Below, piece by piece: positions 32,713 to 45,331 of a stretch of 64,000 nucleotides of DNA (positions are counted from its first letter, which is position 1; the number at the start of each line of letters is the position of its first letter). Made by a program: the position numbers and the translations under genes. The DNA comes from Methylovorus mays. Lineage in GTDB: Bacteria; Pseudomonadota; Gammaproteobacteria; Burkholderiales; Methylophilaceae. The stretch covers positions 682,001-746,000 of the forward strand of contig NZ_JAJAVG010000008.1 of the NCBI RefSeq assembly GCF_020531915.1, given 5' to 3'. The notes under the pieces were generated by a model. The model was not told the DNA's origin. It did no database searches and saw only the letters and a program-made list of their open reading frames with translations.

Positions 32713-34365
32713 GTGTCTCAATCGCCCTCTTCGAAGTCTGCCGCATTATTCCAGGAAGCGCTCAAAGCGGAAGCGGAGCAGGACTATTTTGAGGCCTTGA
32801 GCAAATACACCGCCTCGCTGTCCCTCGAGGGCGATCAGGTGCCAACCTGGATCCGTATTGGCAAGATCTTCCTGCGTACCATGAAATATCAGCAGGCGCG
32901 CGAAACCATGGAATTTGTGCTGGGCATGGACCCGCACAATGTCGATGCCATTTACGGCCTGGCGATTTCGTATTTTTACCTGGGCAAGCTGGATGAAGCC
33001 CGAGCCTTTATTGATCAGGCCGTAGAGATGCAACCGGATAACGCGACCTATGCGATAGACCGCGCCAATATCCACTCCATCAGCCAGCCAGATCCCGCAC
33101 GCAAACTGCAGCTTTACCAGGCATGGGGGCAACGCTTTGCCGACCCGCTGGCCCGCCAGAGCCCGCCATTACTGAACAATCGCAACCCGGATCGCGTGCT
33201 GAAAGTAGGTTATGTGTCCGGCGACATGCGTGACCATGCCATCGCCTTTTTCCTGGAGCCCGTGTTCAGGCATCATGACCCGGCACAAGTCGAAGTGCAT
33301 GTGTTCTCTACCGCGATGCAGGAGGACGACACCACCGCCCACCTGAAATCCCTGGTGCCACACTGGCATGATGTGTCCAAACTGGACGACGAAGCCTTGT
33401 TCAAACGGATACGGGCCCTGCAGATTGATGTGCTGGTCGACCTCTCCGGCCATACCTACGGTCACCGCCTGTATGTATTCGCCCGTCGCGCCGCGCCTGT
33501 ACAGGCGACATGGCTGGGCTACATGGGCGGCACGCTGGGCATGCAAGCCATGGATTACCGGCTGACCGATTACGGCGCAGACCCGGCTGGCCACGAGGCC
33601 CATTACCTGGAAAAGCTGTATCGCCTGGAATGCATGGCCAGCTATATTCCGCCCGCCCATTCGCCCCTGGTAGAAACCCCGCCCATGCTGCAGGGCAACC
33701 CGCCTACCATCGGCTGCCTCAACAGCTCGCGCAAGGTGACTGACCGCATGTTGCTGCTGTGGAAACGCATCATGGAGCAGCGCAGCGATATCCAGCTATT
33801 GCTGCAAGTGCAGGAAAACTCCATAGACGACGCCATCCATACCATAGAGCCACGTCTGGTCGAGCTGGATATGCCGCTGGATCGCATCATCGTTTCGCCC
33901 ATGGTGCCGCTGGCAGAGTTCATGGAGCGCGGAGCTTTGGTGGATGTAGCGCTGGATACTTCGCCAGTCTCTGGCGGAACGACCACCCTGCATACTTTGT
34001 GGATGGGCTTGCCGGTGGTCACCCTGGATGCGGATGAAGCGGTATCTTCCACCACCGCGCGCACACTGGCAGGACTTGGCTACAGCGAATGGGTGGCCAG
34101 CGACGAAGATGCGTATATCAATATTGTGTTGCGCTTGCTGGATAACCCCGATCAGCTGACAAGCTTGCGCAGGGATATCCGGACCCGCATGCAAAACAGC
34201 TGGGTAATGGCTTACCAGACCCGTTGTGCCGAGCTGGAAAAAGCCTATCGGCGGCTGTGGTTCAATCATTTGCTGGGGGAACCCTTGTTTCTGGATTTCC
34301 TGCCGTTTACCGCTGAACAAAAAGCCAAGGTCACCGCCTTGCGTGAAAAATACCATCAGGGCTAG
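32713..34365 (+). CDS. TPR protein with GT41 (SPINDLY/OGT-like) glycosyltransferase domain
   Basis: 550 aa from a GTG. Residues about 8-120 are three TPR repeats (SKYTASLSLEGDQVPTWIRI; AIYGLAISYFYLGKLDEARA). From about residue 155 a GT41 catalytic region follows: VGYVSGDMRDHAIAFFLEPV, DVLVDLSGHTYGHRLYVFA, QATWLGYMGGTLGMQAMDY and DTSPVSGGTTTLHTLWMGLPVV. Such soluble enzymes glycosylate proteins from nucleotide sugars; the Caulobacter flagellin transferase FlmG has a comparable layout. It is the first gene of the island, followed after 2 nt by the aminotransferase, so it probably transfers the sugar the island makes. Confidence 0.88.
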   Translation: MSQSPSSKSAALFQEALKAEAEQDYFEALSKYTASLSLEGDQVPTWIRIGKIFLRTMKYQQARETMEFVLGMDPHNVDAIYGLAISYFYLGKLDEARAFIDQAVEMQPDNATYAIDRANIHSISQPDPARKLQLYQAWGQRFADPLARQSPPLLNNRNPDRVLKVGYVSGDMRDHAIAFFLEPVFRHHDPAQVEVHVFSTAMQEDDTTAHLKSLVPHWHDVSKLDDEALFKRIRALQIDVLVDLSGHTYGHRLYVFARRAAPVQATWLGYMGGTLGMQAMDYRLTDYGADPAGHEAHYLEKLYRLECMASYIPPAHSPLVETPPMLQGNPPTIGCLNSSRKVTDRMLLLWKRIMEQRSDIQLLLQVQENSIDDAIHTIEPRLVELDMPLDRIIVSPMVPLAEFMERGALVDVALDTSPVSGGTTTLHTLWMGLPVVTLDADEAVSSTTARTLAGLGYSEWVASDEDAYINIVLRLLDNPDQLTSLRRDIRTRMQNSWVMAYQTRCAELEKAYRRLWFNHLLGEPLFLDFLPFTAEQKAKVTALREKYHQG

Positions 34366-34367
34366 GC

Positions 34368-35510
34368 ATGCAAACATCGTCCGGTATTCCACTGCTGACA
34401 CCGCAACTGCCTGACCGGGCTGCCTTGCAGCCTTATCTTGAGCGCATAGACCACACTCGCCACTACTCCAACTTTGGTCCTCTTGTGCTAGAACTGGAGA
34501 GCCGTCTGGCCAGCCGTTTTTCTGACCAGGGTAAGCAACCACTCGAAGTGGTCACCGTCAGCAGTGCCACTGCCGGACTTGAGCTGGCCCTGACCAGCCT
34601 GGATCTGCCACCCGGCTCGCGCGTGCTGGTACCTGCATTGACCTTCGTCGCCAGCCTCACCGCCATATTGCGCGCCGGGCACCTGCCGGTTATCTGTGAT
34701 ATAGACCCGCACAGCTGGCTGCTCACGCCTGATATTGCAGAAGCCTGCATCGCCAGCAGTGATGCCAAGGCGATTATTGCCGTCGCCACCTTCGGCCAGG
34801 CGCAGGACACCTTGCGCTGGCAAGCGCTGCAGCAGAAAACCGGCGTCAAGGTCGTGATTGATGCCGCCGCCGCCTTTGGCAGCCAGTGGCTGCTCACGCC
34901 GGACATTCCCGTCGTCTTCAGCATGCATGCCACCAAATCGCTGGCAGCGGGAGAAGGCGGATTTGTCGTCACTGGCAACAGCGAGCAGCGGCAGATGATC
35001 AAGGAGCTGAGCAATTTCGGCATCAATCTCAACCCGGATACCCAGCATCCGGTCGGCCATCTCAGCTATGCGGGCACCAATGCCAAGCTGTCGGAATATC
35101 ATGCGGCAGTGGGACTGGCCAGCCTTGACACCTGGCAGCAGCAGGCCGATGCCAGACAGGCGATCTACCATCGCTATCAGCATTTGCTGCAATCCATGTG
35201 TGGAGAAACGCTGGTCTGGCAGCACGGACCATTGCCCGCGGCCCCCACAACGTTCAGTGTGCGCGTAGGTTCAGATGCACGGCGAATTAAACTTGAGCAA
35301 TTATGTGCCGTACAAGGTATAGGCACGCGACGCTGGTATCAGCCGCTACTACACCGGCATGCGGCCAAGGTAGGGCCTATCCTGCACTTGCCGACACCCG
35401 TGGCTGAAGCCGTAAGCTCAGACTTGATCGGCCTGCCGTTTTCACCCTTTTTGCAGGATGGACAAATGCAGGAAGTGGCTGCTAATGTGCTGGCCGCAGT
35501 AAGCGACTGA
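34368..35510 (+). CDS. DegT/DnrJ/EryC1-type sugar aminotransferase
   Basis: 380 aa PLP enzyme. The catalytic lysine is Lys190 in FSMHATKSLAAGEGGFV, the SxHxTKxLxxGEGG pattern of sugar aminotransferases. TVSSATAGLELALTSL (phosphate cup) and LVPALTFVASLTAILRAGHLP are also typical. It would aminate a keto-sugar nucleotide such as a 4-keto-6-deoxyhexose. The dehydratase that would make that substrate is not in the window. Confidence 0.9.
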   Translation: MQTSSGIPLLTPQLPDRAALQPYLERIDHTRHYSNFGPLVLELESRLASRFSDQGKQPLEVVTVSSATAGLELALTSLDLPPGSRVLVPALTFVASLTAILRAGHLPVICDIDPHSWLLTPDIAEACIASSDAKAIIAVATFGQAQDTLRWQALQQKTGVKVVIDAAAAFGSQWLLTPDIPVVFSMHATKSLAAGEGGFVVTGNSEQRQMIKELSNFGINLNPDTQHPVGHLSYAGTNAKLSEYHAAVGLASLDTWQQQADARQAIYHRYQHLLQSMCGETLVWQHGPLPAAPTTFSVRVGSDARRIKLEQLCAVQGIGTRRWYQPLLHRHAAKVGPILHLPTPVAEAVSSDLIGLPFSPFLQDGQMQEVAANVLAAVSD

Positions 35511-35543
35511 TACAACGTATAACAATATAACTTAGGGAATATT

Positions 35544-35768
35544 ATGGACAGCATCGAAGACTTCATCGAAAAATTCAATGGCGCGGTGGACTTTCAGGAG
35601 CCAGTGGAGATTACCGCCAGCACCCAGCTACACACCTTGCCAGAGTGGGATTCACTGGCTGCACTCGGCGTGATCGTCATGTTCAGCATGGAATACAACA
35701 AGACCATCAGTGGCGAAAACCTGAAAAACTGCAACACCATCGCCGACTTGCACGCGCTCAGCGCCTAA
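35544..35768 (+). CDS. Acyl carrier protein (dedicated)
   Basis: 74 aa. The motif EWDSLAALGVI has Ser37 in the DSL position used for phosphopantetheine. The rest fits the four-helix ACP pattern, though it is not the FabF-type housekeeping AcpP (E-x-L-G-A-D-S-L-D-T-V). Together with the KASIII and ketoreductase that follow, it likely carries a short acyl chain for transfer to an amino sugar. Confidence 0.87.
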   Translation: MDSIEDFIEKFNGAVDFQEPVEITASTQLHTLPEWDSLAALGVIVMFSMEYNKTISGENLKNCNTIADLHALSA

Positions 35769-35792
35769 CCTCTTCACGCTCAGGATCCTGTT

Positions 35793-36845
35793 ATGGCCCA
35801 GTCCACCTTGCACAATGTCCGTATTGCCGGTGTCGCTTCCTGCGTACCCCGACAGACTGTCTCCAACCTGGACTGCCCGCCAGAGCAAGTCTCCATGCGT
35901 GAACGCCTGGTACGGAATATCGGCATTGCATCACGCCGACAGTCGCCAGCCGGGTTGTGTTTCTCCGATCTGGCACAGCATGCCGCAGAAAAGCTGATAC
36001 AGGATCTGGGCTGGAACAAAGACGACATTGATGCGCTGATTGTGGTGACCCAATCGCCTGATTATCCTTACCCCGGTAGCGCCGTTATCCTGCAGGACCG
36101 CTTGGGCCTGCCCAATAGCTGTCTGGCATTCGATATCAATCTGGGATGCTCCGGCTACCCTTATGGCCTCTATGTCGTGGGCAGCATGATCTCGGCAGGC
36201 AAGCTGAAAAAAGCCCTGCTGCTGGTCGGTGACAAATCCACCAACCCCAACTCGCAGGATCAGGGCTTTGCCGTGCTGTTCAGCGACGCGGGCACCGCCA
36301 CCGCGCTGGAGTATGACGAATCCGCTCCACCAGCCTATTTCGACCTTTACTCGGATGGCTCGGGTTACAAAGCCATTTATTGCCCTGCTGGCGGTAACCG
36401 CAACCCCTTGCTTCCCGAGTATCTGGAACCCAAGGCAGGCGAAGACGGTGTCATTCGTCGCCAGGTTGATATCGTGCTGGATGGCCCGGCCATCCTGAAT
36501 TTTTCCACCACCCGCGTGCCACCGGCAGTGGATGCCTTGCTGGCGCAGGCCGGCTTGGGCAAGGAGGATGTGGACTGGTACCTGTTTCACCAGGCCAACA
36601 AAATGATCAACGAAACCATACGCAAAAAACTGGGCCTGCCGCCTGAGCGTGTTCCTTCCACCCTGTACGACTTTGGCAATACCAGTTCCGCCTCCATTCC
36701 GCTGACCCTGACCATGCACGCGCGTGAAACCATGCTGCAAAAACCGCAGCGCCTGCTGATGAGTGGGTTTGGCGTGGGGCTATCCTGGGCCAGTTGCATC
36801 CTGCAAATAGAGGGCGCCGTATTGCCGGAGCTGATTGAAGTATGA
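35793..36845 (+). CDS. 3-oxoacyl-ACP synthase III family protein
   Basis: 350 aa thiolase-fold enzyme. The nucleophile is Cys119 in [13 protein letters not shown], with His in [10 protein letters not shown] and Asn in [12 protein letters not shown], the full KASIII triad. It condenses an acyl-CoA with malonyl-ACP. Given its neighbours, it probably starts a short 3-oxoacyl chain on the dedicated ACP. The ATG of the next gene overlaps its stop. Confidence 0.9.
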
Positions 36846-37606
36846 GCACCACGGCTTACAACCCCTTTAGCCTGAGCGGCAAACGCATTCTGGTTACCGG
36901 TGCCAGTTCCGGCCTGGGGCTGGCAACCGCCATTGCCTGCGCCCGCATGGGAGCAGAAGTGATTGGCGTGGGGCGCGACCCCGAGCGTCTGCAATCTGCC
37001 TTGCAGGCACTGCAGGCCATCTCCCCATTGCAACATCAGATGCTGTCCGCCGAACTGACGGACGGCGCTGCCCGCGATGCCCTGTTGGCCCAGATCACGA
37101 CGCCGCTCAATGGTGTTGTGCATGGTGCTGGCATCTCGCGCCTGAGCCCGGTACGCATGATCACCGAAGCGCATCTGCGTGAAGTGCAGGCCGTGAACGT
37201 CGAAGCCCCCACCTTGCTGACCCAGGGTTTGTTGCGCAAAAACCTGATCGCGCAGGAAGGCTCCATCGTCTTTATCTCCTCGATTGCGGCCCATATCGGC
37301 GTCGCTGGTGTCGCCGCCTACTCCGGCACCAAGGCCGCCCTGATCGCCATTACACGCTGCCTGGCCATGGAGGTGATCAAGCGTCGCATCCGCGCCAACT
37401 GCCTGTCACCCGCGCTGGTGGAAACCCCGTTGCTGGATGCCACTGCCGCCATTACCGGCACCATCGAGCAAGAGCGCAATAATTATCCTCTGGGGTTCGG
37501 CAAGCCGGATGATGTCGCCCATGCGGCGATTTTCCTGCTATCGGATGCCAGCCGCTGGATCACCGGCACCACCATGGTGATGGATGGCGGACTCACCATC
37601 AGCTGA
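36842..37606 (+). CDS. Short-chain dehydrogenase/reductase, FabG-like
   Basis: 254 aa. [12 protein letters not shown] (NAD(P) loop), catalytic Ser in VFISSIAA and Tyr160-x3-Lys164 (YSGTKAAL) are intact. It ends with [13 protein letters not shown] as in FabG. It most plausibly reduces the 3-oxoacyl-ACP made by the preceding enzyme to 3-hydroxyacyl-ACP. ATGA overlap with the KASIII gene. Confidence 0.9.
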
Positions 37607-37608
37607 CC

Positions 37609-38262
37609 ATGAGCCATCAGCGCCATCGCAATCTGCTCATCGTAGGGGCTCGCGGCTTTGGCCGTGAAGTGCTCAATTACATCGAGAATGACAATCCGCT
37701 GTTCACGGTAAAAGGCTTTCTGGACCAGAACGTGAATGCGCTGGCGGGCTATGACCGCGATGTCGGTGTCGTTGGCGATCCCTTCACCTATCAGCCGCTG
37801 GAAAATGAAGCCTTTATCGCTGCTCTGGGCGATCCTCAGCAGCGCTTCAAATACACCGCCACCTTGCGCGATGTGCATCATGTCGATTTTGCGACCGTGG
37901 TACACCCGCGCGCCAATGTCGCCGCCCACAGCCGCATGCGACATGGCTGCATCATTGCGCCCAATGTCGGCATTTCATGCGATGTGGAGATAGGCGAGTT
38001 CACGCATATTCAGGAATACACCGTCATCGGCCACGATGCCCGCATCGGCAACTGGTGCCAGATCAACTCGCATTGCACCATCGCAGGTGGTGCCCAGATC
38101 GGGCATTTCGTCACCATACATCCCAATTGCGTGATCACCGCCAACGCCAGAATTGGCGATGGGGTAACCGTAGGGGCAGGCAGTGTCGTTATTGGGAAAA
38201 TTCCCGAAGGTGTCACCATATTAGGCAATCCCGCCAGACGATTTACATTTACTTCTGGATAA
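37609..38262 (+). CDS. NeuD-type sugar O/N-acyltransferase (hexapeptide repeat)
   Basis: 217 aa. It has an N-terminal nucleotide-fold piece (LLIVGARGFGREVLNYI) and a C-terminal left-handed beta-helix of hexapeptide repeats (IGEFTHIQEYTVIGHDARIG; NCVITANARIGDGVTVGAGS). NeuD/PglD/VioB-like enzymes acylate amino sugars at the nucleotide level. In this operon it could use the 3-hydroxyacyl-ACP and the amino sugar from the DegT enzyme. It begins 2 nt after the SDR stop. Confidence 0.88.
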   Translation: MSHQRHRNLLIVGARGFGREVLNYIENDNPLFTVKGFLDQNVNALAGYDRDVGVVGDPFTYQPLENEAFIAALGDPQQRFKYTATLRDVHHVDFATVVHPRANVAAHSRMRHGCIIAPNVGISCDVEIGEFTHIQEYTVIGHDARIGNWCQINSHCTIAGGAQIGHFVTIHPNCVITANARIGDGVTVGAGSVVIGKIPEGVTILGNPARRFTFTSG

Positions 38263-38266
38263 CCTC

Positions 38267-39571
38267 ATGTTTCCATTTCTTCACGAACAAACACTTAAGA
38301 ATGAGCTACTTCAACTTGGAAGCTCATTAGCCAATCCCGCCGCCCGGTTGCCCCAATGGCTGGACAAATCTCCGCAGAGCTTACTGAAAGAAAGCAAATT
38401 CATCGTCTGTGGCTCCGGTTGCCGTTCAGAAATCCGGGTGCTGGCGCAGCAAGCGAATGTGATTGCCATTGTCGATGATTTCCTTAAGCAACCAACTGTG
38501 TTCGGCATTCCGGTCATCCGTTCTGATGAGTGGATACAGCGTTGCCGCGAAGACCGGGCTATTGTTTCATGCATCCTTACGCCAAATGGCCGGGCGTTCC
38601 AGCACTTCACCAAACTGGCGACTCAGTGGGAATTGCGCACCCTGCTTCCCCTGCAGTTTCTGCATATGCTGGAAGAGTGCAACATCGACAGAAAAGGGGA
38701 AACCGGGCGTTTTTTCTGGTATGGCTATGAATTTTTTACTTACACCCTGGAACACCTGGATCGCCTGCTGGAGATACCAGCACTGTTTGAGGATAGTTAT
38801 TCCAGGATCTCATGGCTATCCATCCTGCTTTATCGCATGACACTGAATCCCTTTTACCTGGAAGGCTGCGCTGTAGGCAGCGGCGGTGGGCAATATGTGT
38901 TGAACGGCTATGGCGTCAACAAGCAGTTTTTCAAATTTTCAGATGATGAAGTCTATGTGGATGGCGGTGCTTTTACTGGCGACACCATTGCCTCGTTTCT
39001 CAATGCCTGCAATGGAAAATTCAAGCACATTCACTCGTTTGAGCCTTCGCATGACCACAATGTGCAAATCAGAAACCGCTTGCGAACTCTGCAGCATGAA
39101 TATCTTAAACCGCTGGCCAGCAGCATTACCTTGCACGAAGCCGGGCTCTGGGATAGCAAAACCACACTGGAATTCAACCCCAGCCAAATCGTTGATGACT
39201 TCGATATCACCAATCATGTGCAATCCAAATCCGCCCATATGGTGGACTCAGGCATCATCAATCACATCTATGATGACCACGTGGAAAGAAACGCCGCCAT
39301 TCAAGTGCCCGTAGTCACCATAGACGAGGCCACCCATGGCGAAGCGACTTATCTGAAATTTGAAATTGAAGGGTCTGAATTAAAGGCCCTGCATGGCGCG
39401 GCAGAAACCATAGCACGCAATCGCCCTAAAATGGCGGTGTCCATTTATCACAAGCCTGAAGACTTGATCACGCTGACTGAGTATGTCATTGCCACCGGCC
39501 AAAATTACAAACTTGGCTTCAGGCAGCACAACTCTCTGGCTCCAGATGGTATGGTGCTTTATTGCTATTGA
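38267..39571 (+). CDS. FkbM-family methyltransferase with N-terminal Rossmann-like domain
   Basis: 434 aa. From about residue 220 a FkbM methyltransferase: DEVYVDGGAFTGDTIASFL (SAM loop), IHSFEPSHDHNVQIRNRL and ATYLKFEIEGSELKALHGA. The first 200 residues begin with a nucleotide-fold-like region (FIVCGSGCRSEIRVLAQQAN) and have no clear family. It likely O-methylates the island sugar. Base composition is slightly more AT-rich than flanking genes. Confidence 0.85.
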   Translation: MFPFLHEQTLKNELLQLGSSLANPAARLPQWLDKSPQSLLKESKFIVCGSGCRSEIRVLAQQANVIAIVDDFLKQPTVFGIPVIRSDEWIQRCREDRAIVSCILTPNGRAFQHFTKLATQWELRTLLPLQFLHMLEECNIDRKGETGRFFWYGYEFFTYTLEHLDRLLEIPALFEDSYSRISWLSILLYRMTLNPFYLEGCAVGSGGGQYVLNGYGVNKQFFKFSDDEVYVDGGAFTGDTIASFLNACNGKFKHIHSFEPSHDHNVQIRNRLRTLQHEYLKPLASSITLHEAGLWDSKTTLEFNPSQIVDDFDITNHVQSKSAHMVDSGIINHIYDDHVERNAAIQVPVVTIDEATHGEATYLKFEIEGSELKALHGAAETIARNRPKMAVSIYHKPEDLITLTEYVIATGQNYKLGFRQHNSLAPDGMVLYCY

Positions 39572-39578
39572 TATCCAG

Positions 39579-40694
39579 ATGACTACCGGCCTCATACTTC
39601 CCGATTTTTACCGCAATCCTGCGCACCTGGCTCATGAGTACAACGCGCTGTTCAAGGCCGCGTGGAACTTCGTCGGCATGCGCTTCGAACTGGAGGGCGG
39701 CCTGCATCGCGGCATAAAAGTGGCTGATACCGACTTGCTCATCCAGCTGGATAAATCAGGCAAGCCTCGCGCGTATCGTAATGTATGCTCCCACCGTCAT
39801 GCCCAGCTTTGTGATCAGGGTTTGCACCATGGCCCCGTACGCTGCCCCTACCATAGCTGGACTTACGACCGCGAAGGCATACCGGTCGGCATTCCGCAGC
39901 AGCAAGCTTTTCCAGAGGTGGTTGCGAACCCGGCGGCTTATCGCCTGCAGGAATTTGCCTGTGAAGTAGCGGGCCAGTTCATATTTGTGCGATTAAGCGA
40001 AAACGGCCCCAGCCTGCAGGATTATCTGGGGGAGGAATTTGACTTTCTCTGCCGTGCATCCACCGGCATGACCAGCGTGCATGACGAGTTTCGCCAGGAG
40101 GTAGAAGCCAACTGGAAAGTGGTGATCGAAAACTCGCTGGAGGGCTACCATGTCCCCGCCGTGCACAACAAAACCTTCATGCAGGTGGAGGGCATGCAGC
40201 GCGGTTATGAAGCGCCGGTAGATCACCTTGAACATCCCTTGCACTCGCACATCGTCCATCCCGCCGATCCGGAATGGCTGGCCAGCTTTGAGCGCCGGGT
40301 GGAACCCAAGCTGGGAAAATGGCATTGGCGCTTTGCCAATTACACGCACCACCTGATTTTCCCCAACCTGACCGTCACCTCATTCATGGGCTATAGCTAT
40401 CACGTACAGCGCTTTGAACCGACAGCCGTTGACCGCACCACCGTGCATTCACGATCCGTTGGTGTCGGTTTTGAAGGGCAGTCCGCAGTTGGTGCAAAAA
40501 TGCTGGAACAAATCTACAGCGACAGCAAACATTTTACTGAGCGCGTGTTTGGGGAAGACGGCGACATTTGCAAAGCGGTACAGCTCGGCCTCAACAGCGC
40601 GGTCAATCCAGCCGTTATCGGCAATGGCATCGAATCGCGTGTCGCCCATTTCCATCGCGCCTATCAAGCCATGCTTCACGCAGAGGCCGCATAA
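39579..40694 (+). CDS. Rieske non-heme iron oxygenase, alpha subunit type
   Basis: 371 aa from ATG 39579; the frame opens earlier inside the FkbM gene but the family start fits here. The [2Fe-2S] ligands are Cys70-x-His72 and Cys89-x2-His92, and the mononuclear iron site is WKVVIENSLEGYHVPAVH. These enzymes hydroxylate or demethylate ring compounds. No ferredoxin or reductase gene is next to it. In the island it may oxidise the sugar or its acyl group, an unusual use of this family. Confidence 0.88.
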   Translation: MTTGLILPDFYRNPAHLAHEYNALFKAAWNFVGMRFELEGGLHRGIKVADTDLLIQLDKSGKPRAYRNVCSHRHAQLCDQGLHHGPVRCPYHSWTYDREGIPVGIPQQQAFPEVVANPAAYRLQEFACEVAGQFIFVRLSENGPSLQDYLGEEFDFLCRASTGMTSVHDEFRQEVEANWKVVIENSLEGYHVPAVHNKTFMQVEGMQRGYEAPVDHLEHPLHSHIVHPADPEWLASFERRVEPKLGKWHWRFANYTHHLIFPNLTVTSFMGYSYHVQRFEPTAVDRTTVHSRSVGVGFEGQSAVGAKMLEQIYSDSKHFTERVFGEDGDICKAVQLGLNSAVNPAVIGNGIESRVAHFHRAYQAMLHAEAA

Positions 40695-40698
40695 CATC

Positions 40699-43194
40699 TT
40701 GATTTCGAATATCCAGTTTTTACCCGACTTGCTGCGCAACACGCGCGCCTTCGCCGAAGGTTTTTATGACCTGGTGCGTGAACCCATCCTGCAAGGTTGC
40801 GGCATCCAGGCCGGGGCCTCTCCCGAAAGCCGTTTTGCTCACTGGCTGAAACCGGGGTTTTCTGTTGAGACTTTTCGCGAGCTCAGCGGCTGGGACGAGT
40901 CGGATATTGAAAACAGCTGGCTACGCCATTACTTTGCCCTGCCCACCAGCGCGGCTGACTATCTGCTCGCGCATTTGCCGGCAGATACGCTGATTCTCTC
41001 GTTTGAAATGCCGCCCTGGCTGTCTGATCTACTGGATCGCCAGCAGATCCCGTATCTCGATATCCGCGTGTCACCACTGCGCTTCGGGCGCGACCTCTAT
41101 ATTGCCTTGCGCACCCATCAGGGTAACCTCCGTCAGCGGCTACAGGCTTATGTGGTGAGTGCGGAAGAACTCAGACTGGAGGCGGCAGCCCTGGCGGCGT
41201 CCGTGCGCATGCATCAGCAGCGGCTGGAGGAATCTGGCCGCTACCCGCTGGATCTCGACAATACTCTCGTCTACATCGGGCAAGCGCCTTACGATGCATC
41301 GCTGTTATCCGACAAGCATTCCACCGCCCTGCGCTGCACCGACTTCGCCGACCAGCTGCGCGAGCTGGCCCAGGGGCGGCGCCTGCTGCACAAAGCCCAT
41401 CCGTTTGCAGCGGATTTTGCGAAGGAAGAACAACGTGCGCTTGCCGAGATCACCGGCCAGGCGGTCGGCACCTGCTACCAGAATGCCTATCAGCTCCTGA
41501 GTTGCGCCCACGATGTGGAACTGGTGGGCATTTCGTCGGGCATGCTGCAGGAGGCCAGCTGGTTTGGCAAACAGGCCCATACGCTGTTCCGGCCTGTGGT
41601 GCCGCTTCCATTGGCGGATACGCCCCTTTCTACTCAGGATTTCCTGCAAGTCCATTTCGAAGAGTGGCTGTCGCCAGGCTTCTGGCATGCCGTACTGACG
41701 CCTGAAAAGCCCGCTCCACGCCTGCTCAAGCTGCCGACCGTACAACATCACCATGCCCGCCAATCGCTGGATCAGTGGTGGGACTACGCCAAGGTGATGA
41801 CCTGGGAAAAATCACTGCCCATCGAATCTTTTGAACGCACAGGCGGCATCTTGCTGCGGCAACGCATTGAGGCGCTGGAGCAGGGGCTGCTGCAAAATCG
41901 CAGCATGGTGGTGGATTGCGATGAAGGCAACGAGGTGTATTGGCCATCCTCTGCCAGAATGCGCGGCAAAATCACCATACGCGGCCGTGGTAACCGGGTC
42001 ATCATTGATGAGCAGGTGGACTTTGACGCGACCATCGACATTACGGGCGACCATAACGGCATCGTAGTGGATAGAGACGTACGCATCGCGGGCAAGATCT
42101 ACGCTTCGGGTTCTGGTGGCATGCTCCGGCTGGGTGCGGGCTCGACCTTTACCCGTGTCATTATCAAGTGTCATGAGGGCAGAAACATTCTCATCGGCAG
42201 GGACTGCATGTTTTCCAATGAGATTGAGCTGCGCACCACCGATGGCCATGCCATCGTTGATCCTGAAACCGGCATGCGGCTGAATCCTGCGCAAGACATC
42301 GTCATTGGCGACCATGTGTGGGTGGGGAAGGGCGTCACCATCCTCAAGGGCGGGCAGATTCCGGGCAATACCATTGTGGGGGCCGACTCCCTCGTCAATG
42401 GCATTTACACCCAAAGCCAGACCCTGCTGGCTGGCAAGCCAGCCCGTATCATCAAAGAGCATGTCACCTGGCAGCGCGAACTGAAAAACAGCTTTAGTCA
42501 GGCCGAGCTGGAGGCATGGAAACGGACACCAGCGCCAGCAGAGGCAACGTCTCCGACGCTGGTTAACGATGACTGGGAACGCGCCAAACAGCTTGCCCTG
42601 GAAAAATTCGCCCAACAGCCTCAAGCCTTTGGCCGCGGGCAACTTTATCAAGGCCATGAGGCATGGGCGTTAGCTGGGCAACGCCCAACACTCTCACGTT
42701 TGCAGGCGTATGGGCTTGACCCGTATCTCTTGCCTGAGCACAAGGTGCTGGATATTGGCTGCAATCTTGGGCTGATGGGCATGGCCTTATCTCCCAGGAT
42801 CGCGCGCTACCATGGCATAGACAGTAACCCGGCATTGATTGAAATCGCGAGAATTCTGGCGGCAGGCCGCGGCATCAAGAACTGTGAATTTCAGCATTGT
42901 TCATTCAACGACCTGATGCAAACATCGCCAGAGCCTTACGACATGGTGCTGTCCTTTGCAGTCCATGTCTGGATAGGCTTGCCGATGGCGCAATACGCTG
43001 CCCAACTCAAAACACTGCTCAAGCCGGGTGGCACGCTGATTATCGAAAGCAATAATCTGGCGAGCAATGATCAATCCTTTTTCTCCGATATTCAGGTCTT
43101 TCTGGATCATGGCTATATCCTGCAGAAACAGGGCATGCTCAAGGATGACGGCATCATAGAGCGTGGCTTCTGCATTTTCCGATGTGGGCAATGA
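40699..43194 (+). CDS. Three-part fusion: polysaccharide-type transferase, hexapeptide acetyltransferase, SAM methyltransferase
   Basis: 831 aa from TTG 40699, chosen because it is 4 nt after the Rieske stop; an ATG at 40624 would overlap that gene. Residues about 1-360 resemble the non-processive capsule or GT99-like domains (LILSFEMPPWLSDLLDRQQI; LLHKAHPFAADFAKEEQRAL), an uncertain match. Residues about 415-590 form a left-handed beta-helix acetyltransferase (IVIGDHVWVGKGVTILKGGQ). Residues about 640-831 are a class I methyltransferase (VLDIGCNLGLMGMALSPRIA). A single protein would add, acylate and methylate a sugar. ATGA overlap with the next gene. Confidence 0.72.
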   Translation: MISNIQFLPDLLRNTRAFAEGFYDLVREPILQGCGIQAGASPESRFAHWLKPGFSVETFRELSGWDESDIENSWLRHYFALPTSAADYLLAHLPADTLILSFEMPPWLSDLLDRQQIPYLDIRVSPLRFGRDLYIALRTHQGNLRQRLQAYVVSAEELRLEAAALAASVRMHQQRLEESGRYPLDLDNTLVYIGQAPYDASLLSDKHSTALRCTDFADQLRELAQGRRLLHKAHPFAADFAKEEQRALAEITGQAVGTCYQNAYQLLSCAHDVELVGISSGMLQEASWFGKQAHTLFRPVVPLPLADTPLSTQDFLQVHFEEWLSPGFWHAVLTPEKPAPRLLKLPTVQHHHARQSLDQWWDYAKVMTWEKSLPIESFERTGGILLRQRIEALEQGLLQNRSMVVDCDEGNEVYWPSSARMRGKITIRGRGNRVIIDEQVDFDATIDITGDHNGIVVDRDVRIAGKIYASGSGGMLRLGAGSTFTRVIIKCHEGRNILIGRDCMFSNEIELRTTDGHAIVDPETGMRLNPAQDIVIGDHVWVGKGVTILKGGQIPGNTIVGADSLVNGIYTQSQTLLAGKPARIIKEHVTWQRELKNSFSQAELEAWKRTPAPAEATSPTLVNDDWERAKQLALEKFAQQPQAFGRGQLYQGHEAWALAGQRPTLSRLQAYGLDPYLLPEHKVLDIGCNLGLMGMALSPRIARYHGIDSNPALIEIARILAAGRGIKNCEFQHCSFNDLMQTSPEPYDMVLSFAVHVWIGLPMAQYAAQLKTLLKPGGTLIIESNNLASNDQSFFSDIQVFLDHGYILQKQGMLKDDGIIERGFCIFRCGQ

Positions 43195-45005
43195 GCAAGG
43201 CACCCACCATCCCCCAACTTGAATCAGGTGACGAAGCGGCATTACTGGCCCAGCTTGCCGCCCGCTACAGCTTGTTCGGGACGCTTCATGAAGCAGAAAC
43301 CCACTGGCAGCAAGCCCTCGCGCTGGACCCATCTCCGAGCAGCTGGTGGCTGGAGTTGGCCAGACTGCAACGCGCCCATGTTCCGGAGCTGGCCCGCGAA
43401 AGCTATGCCCAAGCGATTGCCCGGGGCTGCCCGCATGCCCGTGTTGAGGCCATGCCGCTCAGCCCTGATATCAACATACAGTATCGCAACAGCCTGGATA
43501 TCTGGACGGGCAATCGTCTCGATATCGCCGTCAAATTACTGTATGCGCTGAATTTTCTGGGCCAAGCGCAAGACGATGCGCTGTGCGTGCGCAGCCTGTA
43601 TCGCGAGCATATCCAGCAGCGCACATCGGGAAGAGAGCCCGGCTCGCACAGCAAGCTCAGCGTGGAGGATTATGAGCGCAGCTTTCAGCAGCTGATCCGC
43701 CAAATGCAGACGCAGGGATTCCATGCCCATGCGGCGATCCCCGTCTCTGCTACCGGCCGCATCCTGAATGGGGCACACCGCCTCGCCGCTGCGCTGGCGC
43801 TGGGTATCCAGAATGTACCCACCTTTGTAGTGGAACATGAAACGGTTTACGACTGGGATATGCGCTGGTTCTTACAGCATGGTTTTCAGCCACCCGCGCT
43901 TAATGCCATGCTCAAATGCTGGCTGGAGACCAAACAGCACAAGGCAGCCGGATGGCTTCTGCTAGAAATGCCACCACGTCAGCCGACAAGCCTGACCACC
44001 ATCATGCAATCCCGCGTAATCGCATGGCGCGAACTATGGCTGCAGGATAGCCATGCCCTGTCCGGTGCAGGCTTTACTGGCAAGCACACTGGCGATGCCG
44101 GGCTGACCCTGCGCTTCTTTCTGCTGGAAGGGGAGCAGGCTGATCGCACACACCTGCTCAATACGCTGCAACAGGCAGGGGAACATGCCATGATTTCCAG
44201 CAGTGAGGATCAGGCAGGTATCCTCACCAGCCTGCTGCTGGATGAATCGCAGATTGATCGCCTGCATGGTCATGCTTCCGTGCCGGATAAACGCATGGCA
44301 TGGGCCACTAAAAATATGCCCTTGGCGAGCTTGAAGGCAGCTGTACCTGCTCCCGCGGCAAAATGGGAAAACCTTCGTCTGCTGGAGGGGATAAACACGG
44401 TGATTGATGTAGGCGTTGCGTATGGCACTCCCGCCCTCTATCGCCACTTCCCGCGGGCCCATGTCGTTCTGATAGAACCCGTGCCGCATTTCCGGGAACC
44501 AATTGCTGCCTTGCGCAAGACGCTGGCGAGTAGTGACTATATTGAGCTTGGCCTGGGCAGCGCGCCTGCCACGGCAACGATCAACTATCGCCACGATGCG
44601 CCAATCTTAACCTCGCTACTGGAAAGCAGCGCCCTCCGTGACAACGGTCATGAAGAGATAGAACCCATCACCATCCAGCTGACGACCCTGGATCTTTTGC
44701 TTCCTGGCCTGCCCCATCTGCCGTCGGACATTCTGCTCAAGATAGATAGTGAGGGCTACGAGCTTGAGATTCTCAAGGGTGGCATCGAGGTCTTGCCTAC
44801 GATCAAATATCTGATGCTGGAGGTTTCCGTTATCAAGCGTTTTGAAGCTTCCTATAGCTGCACCGAACTTATGCAGTTTCTTCAACAGCAGGGGTTTGTT
44901 CTGTTTACCTGCCTGTCTGCCAGCGTTGACACTGAAGGCTATTGTCGGGTGATAGATGCCATTTTCATCAATAGCCGATACCTCGACACCACTACCGCCG
45001 CCTGA
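43191..45005 (+). CDS. FkbM methyltransferase with TPR-like and ParB-like N-terminal regions
   Basis: 604 aa from ATG 43191 (ATGA overlap); ATG 43182 is in frame too. Residues about 15-75 look like one or two TPR helices (ARYSLFGTLHEAETHWQQAL). Around 160-225 a ParB/sulfiredoxin-like segment contains GRILNGAHRLAAALALG. From about residue 400 a FkbM methyltransferase follows (VIDVGVAYGTPALYRHFPRA; DILLKIDSEGYELEILKGG). It is the last gene of the island. The function of the middle segment is unknown. Confidence 0.78.
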   Translation: MSKAPTIPQLESGDEAALLAQLAARYSLFGTLHEAETHWQQALALDPSPSSWWLELARLQRAHVPELARESYAQAIARGCPHARVEAMPLSPDINIQYRNSLDIWTGNRLDIAVKLLYALNFLGQAQDDALCVRSLYREHIQQRTSGREPGSHSKLSVEDYERSFQQLIRQMQTQGFHAHAAIPVSATGRILNGAHRLAAALALGIQNVPTFVVEHETVYDWDMRWFLQHGFQPPALNAMLKCWLETKQHKAAGWLLLEMPPRQPTSLTTIMQSRVIAWRELWLQDSHALSGAGFTGKHTGDAGLTLRFFLLEGEQADRTHLLNTLQQAGEHAMISSSEDQAGILTSLLLDESQIDRLHGHASVPDKRMAWATKNMPLASLKAAVPAPAAKWENLRLLEGINTVIDVGVAYGTPALYRHFPRAHVVLIEPVPHFREPIAALRKTLASSDYIELGLGSAPATATINYRHDAPILTSLLESSALRDNGHEEIEPITIQLTTLDLLLPGLPHLPSDILLKIDSEGYELEILKGGIEVLPTIKYLMLEVSVIKRFEASYSCTELMQFLQQQGFVLFTCLSASVDTEGYCRVIDAIFINSRYLDTTTAA

Positions 45006-45124: not shown

Positions 45125-45331
45125 ATGAACTGGGACCAAGTAGAAGGTAACTGGAAACAACTCAAGGGCAAGGTGCGTCAGCAGTGGGGCAAGCTCACCG
45201 ACGACCAGTTTGATCAGATCAAGGGTAACCGTGAAATGCTGTCAGGCAAGTTGCAGGAGCTCTACGGCATTTCCAAGGAAGAAGCCGAAAAACAGATTGA
45301 AAGCTTCAACCGCGACTGTACCCGGCATTAA
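45125..45331 (+). CDS. CsbD-family stress protein
   Basis: 68 aa, very hydrophilic, with the family signature MNWDQVEGNWKQLKGKVRQQ and a second repeat-like WGKLTDDQFDQIKG. CsbD-like proteins accumulate in general stress; their biochemical role is unknown. AAAGGAGATCAGC precedes the ATG. Separated by 119 nt from the glycan island, so probably a new unit. Confidence 0.93.
   Translation: MNWDQVEGNWKQLKGKVRQQWGKLTDDQFDQIKGNREMLSGKLQELYGISKEEAEKQIESFNRDCTRH

Follow-up and report, generated by a model that had tools for sequence, protein, structure and literature searches.

The window analysed here, a 64,000-nucleotide stretch of the 3.0-Mb genome of the methanol-consuming methylotroph Methylovorus mays (assembly GCF_020531915.1; contig NZ_JAJAVG010000008.1, positions 682,001 to 746,000 of the forward strand), carried a ten-gene island at window positions 32713-45005. 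This was likely a flagellin-glycosylation island of an already known kind, and it counted as a variant because of its GT140–acyltransferase–methyltransferase fusion. All ten open reading frames (ORFs) were found on the plus strand, co-directional and tightly packed, as a preliminary description of this DNA had listed them (one strand, with gaps of at most about 33 nt or overlaps). Island proteins were assigned to families by Pfam and NCBIfam with curated cut-offs; the families named earlier were recovered, with the exception of the fusion protein's N-terminal ~400 residues, which matched nothing. The features, with approximate borders for fusion domains 2 and 3, were as follows:

32713-34365, plus strand: TPR plus GT41 (OGT-like) glycosyltransferase, 550 aa (Pfam GT41, 154 bits versus a cut-off of 25, with TPR)
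34368-35510, plus strand: DegT/VioA-type sugar-nucleotide aminotransferase (PF01041, 217 bits; pyridoxal phosphate lysine motif HATKSLAAGEGG)
35544-35768, plus strand: acyl carrier protein (ACP), 74 aa (PP-binding, 20.2 bits, slightly below the cut-off of 20.8; DSL phosphopantetheine motif present)
35793-36845, plus strand: beta-ketoacyl-ACP synthase III (KASIII), VioS-like (Pfam/NCBIfam; Cys119-His266-Asn296 motifs)
36842-37606, plus strand: FabG-like short-chain dehydrogenase/reductase (SDR), VioR-like, of the single-SDR island type (Pfam/NCBIfam; TGASSG and YSGTK motifs)
37609-38262, plus strand: NeuD/PglD/VioB-type sugar N-acyltransferase (TIGR03570, 169 bits, above the cut-off of 160.8; GHD motif)
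38267-39571, plus strand: FkbM-family methyltransferase 1 (PF05050/TIGR01444)
39579-40694, plus strand: Rieske non-haem iron oxygenase (Rieske and ring-hydroxylating alpha domains; CxH...CxxH motif)
40699-41892, plus strand: fusion domain 1, predicted GT140 (KrkA-like) retaining Kdo (3-deoxy-D-manno-octulosonic acid)/CMP (cytidine monophosphate)-ulosonate transferase domain (KrkA profile match, fold, and residues)
42184-42483, plus strand: fusion domain 2, left-handed beta-helix (hexapeptide) acyltransferase (NCBIfam WbbJ/WcaF/maltose O-acetyltransferase matches)
42739-43068, plus strand: fusion domain 3, S-adenosylmethionine-dependent methyltransferase (PF13847/PF13649; fusion stop at 43194)
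43182-45005, plus strand: TPR plus FkbM methyltransferase 2 (Pfam/NCBIfam)

The intergenic gaps along the ten genes were 2, 33, 24, -4, 2, 4, 7, 4, and -13 nt, values that assume that the Rieske gene starts at ATG 39579 and the fusion gene at TTG 40699. These starts were favoured because of the sequence and the N-termini of homologues; the alternative longer ORFs, from 39483 (Rieske) and 40414 (fusion), ran into the preceding gene. Catalytic motifs were kept in all proteins checked, namely the aminotransferase, ACP, KASIII, SDR, acyltransferase, Rieske (2Fe-2S), and GT41 proteins; the last displayed the motifs DMRDHA, SSRKV, and SGGTTTLHTLWMG, and its orthologues at the same locus shared 88% identity within the genus and 65% in Methylobacillus.

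The sequence comparison assigned the island to the viosamine type, with equivalents of VioA, ACP, VioS, VioR, and VioB, so that the logic of the Pseudomonas flagellin viosamine, already recognised in the preliminary description, was well supported in its five core functions. The Pseudomonas syringae viosamine island comprises vioA, vioM, vioT, vioS, vioB, vioR, and acp, and mutants showed that it acts in N-(3-hydroxybutyryl)-2-O-methyl-viosamine on flagellin (PMC3927599). It shared with the M. mays island (i) the aminotransferase, ACP, KASIII, reductase, and acyltransferase in one cluster, (ii) the predicted product N-(3-hydroxybutyryl)-4-amino-4,6-dideoxyhexose, and (iii) an island site remote from flagellin (in P. 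syringae, between gs and hk). They differed in that the seven P. syringae genes name no Rieske, FkbM, or GT140 protein and that the P. syringae transferase is VioT (1,173 aa), while TPR-GT41 is the predicted transferase here.

In the proposed pathway, the DegT enzyme would aminate deoxythymidine diphosphate (dTDP)-4-keto-6-deoxyglucose; KASIII, ACP, and SDR would yield 3-hydroxyacyl-ACP, most likely 3-hydroxybutyryl; and the NeuD/VioB-type enzyme would acylate the 4-amino group; the product would be a viosamine-like, N-acylated sugar nucleotide. The central idea of this route was put forward earlier and is well supported. The TPR-GT41 protein would then bind flagellin in the cytoplasm and join the sugar to Ser/Thr, and the GT140 domain would follow with an acidic ulosonic sugar, either Kdo or a nonulosonate, taken from its CMP-activated form in a double-displacement reaction with Asp199 as the nucleophile. 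The glycan could be tailored by the acyltransferase and methyltransferase domains of the fusion, the two FkbM proteins, and the Rieske oxygenase (acylation, methylation, and oxidation). The flagellin target, exact sugar, acyl group, step order, GT140 donor, and Rieske substrate are what we infer here.

Precursor supply was sought elsewhere in the genome: RmlB was present (501 bits), a KdsB-like gene lay beside an LpxK-like gene, and there was a NeuB-like/CMP-sugar synthetase locus, the KdsB, LpxK, and NeuB-like identities being read from translations and not by family search; therefore, dTDP-4-keto-6-deoxyglucose and CMP-ulosonates should be available. At the last locus (L163, contig C8 of genome G000, about 65038), the NeuB-like synthase was fused to a TIM-barrel-like part beside the CMP-sugar synthetase, which suggests that this genome encodes a separate pathway to nonulosonic acid.

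The role predicted for TPR-GT41, attachment of the sugar to flagellin Ser/Thr, follows an FlmG-like architecture. FlmG of Caulobacter is a cytoplasmic flagellin O-glycosyltransferase (eLife 2020, PMC7591256); both proteins have an N-terminal TPR region (flagellin-binding in FlmG) and a C-terminal GT-B part, a likeness of architecture. The sugar of FlmG is pseudaminic acid, whereas the donor here is likely a dTDP amino sugar.

The island was compared with the 80 nearest loci found by KASIII search, with flagellin counted within about 10 kb, so that about 1.5 Mb of DNA was inspected; the loci were related, and at least 12 named genera contributed, among them Methylovorus, Methylobacillus, Delftia, Comamonas, Massilia, Paraburkholderia, Xanthomonas, Pseudomonas, and Methylomonas. 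The order ACP–KASIII–SDR–NeuD recurred across Beta- and Gammaproteobacteria, and the loci contained ACP (78 of 80), NeuD (77), Rieske (67), DegT (67), FkbM (49), GT41 (41), and flagellin (37). By our own estimate, which takes a genome of 5 Mb to hold a few flagellin genes, chance would put roughly one flagellin in ~1.5 Mb, versus the 37 loci found. Two island types were distinguished: (i) islands with one SDR, closest to that of the window (23/23 loci), and (ii) islands mostly with two SDRs (48/57 loci). Similarity to the window's NeuD and that to its Rieske protein co-varied over the 80 loci (r = 0.83).

The Rieske oxygenase, regarded earlier as an extra, was thus found in 67 of the 80 loci and is a recurrent, regular member of acylated amino-sugar islands; a literature search for Rieske together with flagellin glycosylation found nothing. 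Enterobacterial flagellin glycosylation islands contain GT41, DegT, FkbM, NeuD, ACP, and FabG genes, and they differ in that their description mentions no Rieske or oxygenase (PMC4875605). A ten-gene island of Xanthomonas oryzae (gigX1-10) determines flagellin glycosylation by mass spectrometry, according to reviews. The related Xanthomonas loci shared DegT–ACP–KASIII–SDR–SDR–NeuD–Rieske–FkbM beside fliC, but two SDRs were present in most, and there was no GT41 match within 10 kb and no GT140 fusion.

The N-terminal domain of the fusion, another supposed extra, was identified as a KrkA homologue, that is, a predicted GT140-type retaining Kdo (CMP-ulosonate) transferase domain, and a second, acidic sugar is therefore predicted. 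A sequence profile against the PDB gave KrkA alone as significant (E 1.9e-33). The AlphaFold model from 12 sequences (predicted local distance difference test, pLDDT, 84; predicted template modelling score, pTM, 0.81) matched KrkA first in Foldseek (E 7e-22; template modelling score, TM, 0.69-0.78), then KpsC and WbbB; an earlier model from 5 sequences was weak (pLDDT 57), and Foldseek already picked KrkA with it. KrkA, which acts in the Escherichia coli K13 capsule, became in January 2026 the founding member of GT140, a retaining Kdo transferase family, with the residues Asp193 (QxxxD), Glu102, Arg127, and an HP motif; its D193C variant has been seen to form a covalent adduct of +220 Da (PMC12887879). 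Besides a homologous fold and sequence, the window fusion shared QxxxD, the base Glu, the Arg, and the HP motif: nucleophile D199 in Q195APYD199, base E103, R128, and K232AHP235. The fusion partners differ: KrkA, a capsule-building enzyme, has ribosyltransferase/phosphatase modules attached, while the domain here was fused to acyltransferase and methyltransferase domains in a flagellin-type island. No report of a GT140-type Kdo transferase in flagellin-sugar clusters was found in the literature.

The 12 homologues divided into six and six by C-terminal part and active-site state. Nucleophile, base, Arg, and KxHP were kept in the window protein and those of G054, L096, L107, L123, and L128, which stood alone or had a C-terminal methyltransferase (four of them, the window protein with an extra hexapeptide domain, seen in it alone among the aligned fusion homologues). 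The other six had an MptE/Maf-like C-terminal region, assigned mostly by matches below the curated cut-off or by alignment: three from Methylobacillus (L034:9528-11594, L033:9629-11593, and L035:8110-10071 on the minus strand) together with L108, L145, and L142. Each of these showed at least one active-site departure: the HP motif was lost in four, the nucleophile was changed from D to E or S, and Asp-to-Glu nucleophile plus Glu-to-Asp base changes were present in two. These departures suggest that the Maf-like part may have taken over the function there; in the window fusion, Pfam gave no match to PF01973 (Maf flagellin glycosyltransferase). Three other lineages (L097 of G054, L123, and L128) likewise had an FkbM2 homologue (409-482 bits) next to the GT140 gene. 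The GT140 subgroup is rare: outside the island-bearing Methylophilaceae, the genomes sampled (369 from the class, 398 from the phylum, and 399 from the order) gave no hit above 100 bits, and a scan of the genome contigs with the fusion protein gave no confirmed relative.

It is possible, though short of probable, that the domain has the GT140 fold but uses another donor (a nonulosonate, e.g. pseudaminic or legionaminic acid) or has no catalytic role. A second CMP-sugar synthetase lies beside the NeuB-like gene in the source genome, the related KpsC fold is known to include a Pse transferase, and active-site residues were lost in homologues fused to the Maf-like domain; set against these, the nucleophile, base, Arg, and KxHP were kept in the window copy, and KdsB should make CMP-Kdo always available. 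A broader proposal, which we rate slightly under an even chance, is that a retaining GT140 enzyme working by double displacement adds Kdo or a related ulosonic acid to the flagellin glycans of some Beta- and Gammaproteobacteria, and that in sister islands, where GT140 domains fused to Maf/MptE-like parts lost pieces of the active site, two unrelated CMP-ulosonate transferase folds would swap on one scaffold.

As to the target, flagellin was present in 9/9 Methylophilaceae genomes with the full island and was lacking in G043, in which the island was reduced to the GT41 gene; this co-occurrence is suggestive only, consistent with a flagellin target but weak because the genomes are related. GT41 relatives lay at most 2 kb from flagellin in G040, G029, G022, and G027. 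Several observations weigh against flagellin: (i) flagellar genes, which the preliminary description suggested looking for just outside the window, did not adjoin the island in the source genome, whose two Flagellin_N genes were on another contig (C9), although homologous islands elsewhere did adjoin flagellin; (ii) at over half of the 80 loci no flagellin lay within 10 kb, in some cases through contig ends; (iii) sigma-28 and sigma-54 promoter scans before the island gave none convincing; (iv) no ORF like the 1,173-aa VioT occurred within 32713-45005; (v) many flagellated relatives were without the island, which is therefore not required for flagella; and (vi) the gene-by-gene match to X. oryzae rests on the related Xanthomonas loci plus reviews.

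That the N-acylated amino sugar goes instead to lipopolysaccharide O-antigen, capsule, or exopolysaccharide is improbable: O-antigen loci also typically carry DegT, NeuD, and SDR genes, capsule is what the GT140 founder makes, and flagellin is remote from the island in the source genome, but Pfam/NCBIfam found no flippase (Wzx), polymerase (Wzy), ABC exporter, or initiating phosphotransferase among the island genes, TPR-GT41 is of a cytoplasmic protein O-glycosyltransferase type, and flagellin adjoins homologous islands in 37 of the 80 loci. An O-antigen locus as first choice was rejected on the absence of export and polymerisation genes. Another exported or cytoplasmic protein (pilin or adhesin) is an equally unlikely target: the proteins selected by TPR domains can vary, the target is not readable from DNA, and G043 retains its GT41 gene without flagellin, but flagellin neighbours both homologous islands and GT41 relatives and accompanies every full island in the family.

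The island was bordered by thiG on one side and a CsbD-like gene, tRNA-Gly, and thiD on the other. The same chromosomal site was occupied by an island in G001, G002, G018, G054, and three Methylobacillus genomes, and in G061 the island and its right-hand neighbours were seen. A recurring gene order, a check proposed with the preliminary description, was thus found; the arrangement exceeds chance because order and content recur at this site in other Methylophilaceae and in dozens of other loci. The right border across genera was a strongly conserved small gene (45125-45331) with a translation beginning MNWDQVEGNWKQLKGKV; rpsU was dropped as its identity, as the translation looks CsbD-like.

Between genomes, the order of the head (GT41, DegT, ACP, and KASIII) was kept and the tail was variable. 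The flanks shared mostly 93-99% protein identity with those of the same-genus genomes G001 and G002, versus 88% for GT41, 75% for DegT, 63% for KASIII, 51% for SDR, and 38% for NeuD. The window DegT protein grouped with that of Methylovorus menthalis (G001; support 99/98), while its KASIII grouped with Burkholderiales loci L078/L079 to the exclusion of M. menthalis (support 100/99). Judged from these trees, the island is a mosaic, with GT41 and DegT native to the genus and a cassette from about KASIII onwards swapped in from a Burkholderiales-like source, which accounts for the falling identity. FkbM1 (38267-39571) had a guanine-plus-cytosine (GC) content of 0.49, below that of neighbouring genes, and scored ~600 bits versus proteins from Xanthomonas hortorum, X. 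pisi, and Rhodoferax loci; low GC and distant matches together suggest exchange between classes. In two relatives, a catalase-family gene directly followed the island (L069:7604-8680 and L032:6297-7316, both on the minus strand). The Methylobacillus arboreus island (L034:3242-19002) was larger, with a CMP-type cytidylyltransferase, a 2-hydroxyacid dehydrogenase, an SDR, GT2 proteins (one of 1,177 aa), and a lactamase-fold/GT2 fusion, and it possibly has its own CMP-ulosonate pathway.

The Rieske oxygenase emerges as a regular partner of acylated amino-sugar synthesis. GT140, a family whose description dates from 2026 and which has a single characterised member, is placed by these comparisons in flagellin-type islands, and an acidic sugar on flagella is predicted. 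The islands appear modular, combining a native transferase/aminotransferase head with an exchangeable acyl/tailoring cassette, and close species would therefore carry different predicted flagellar glycans.

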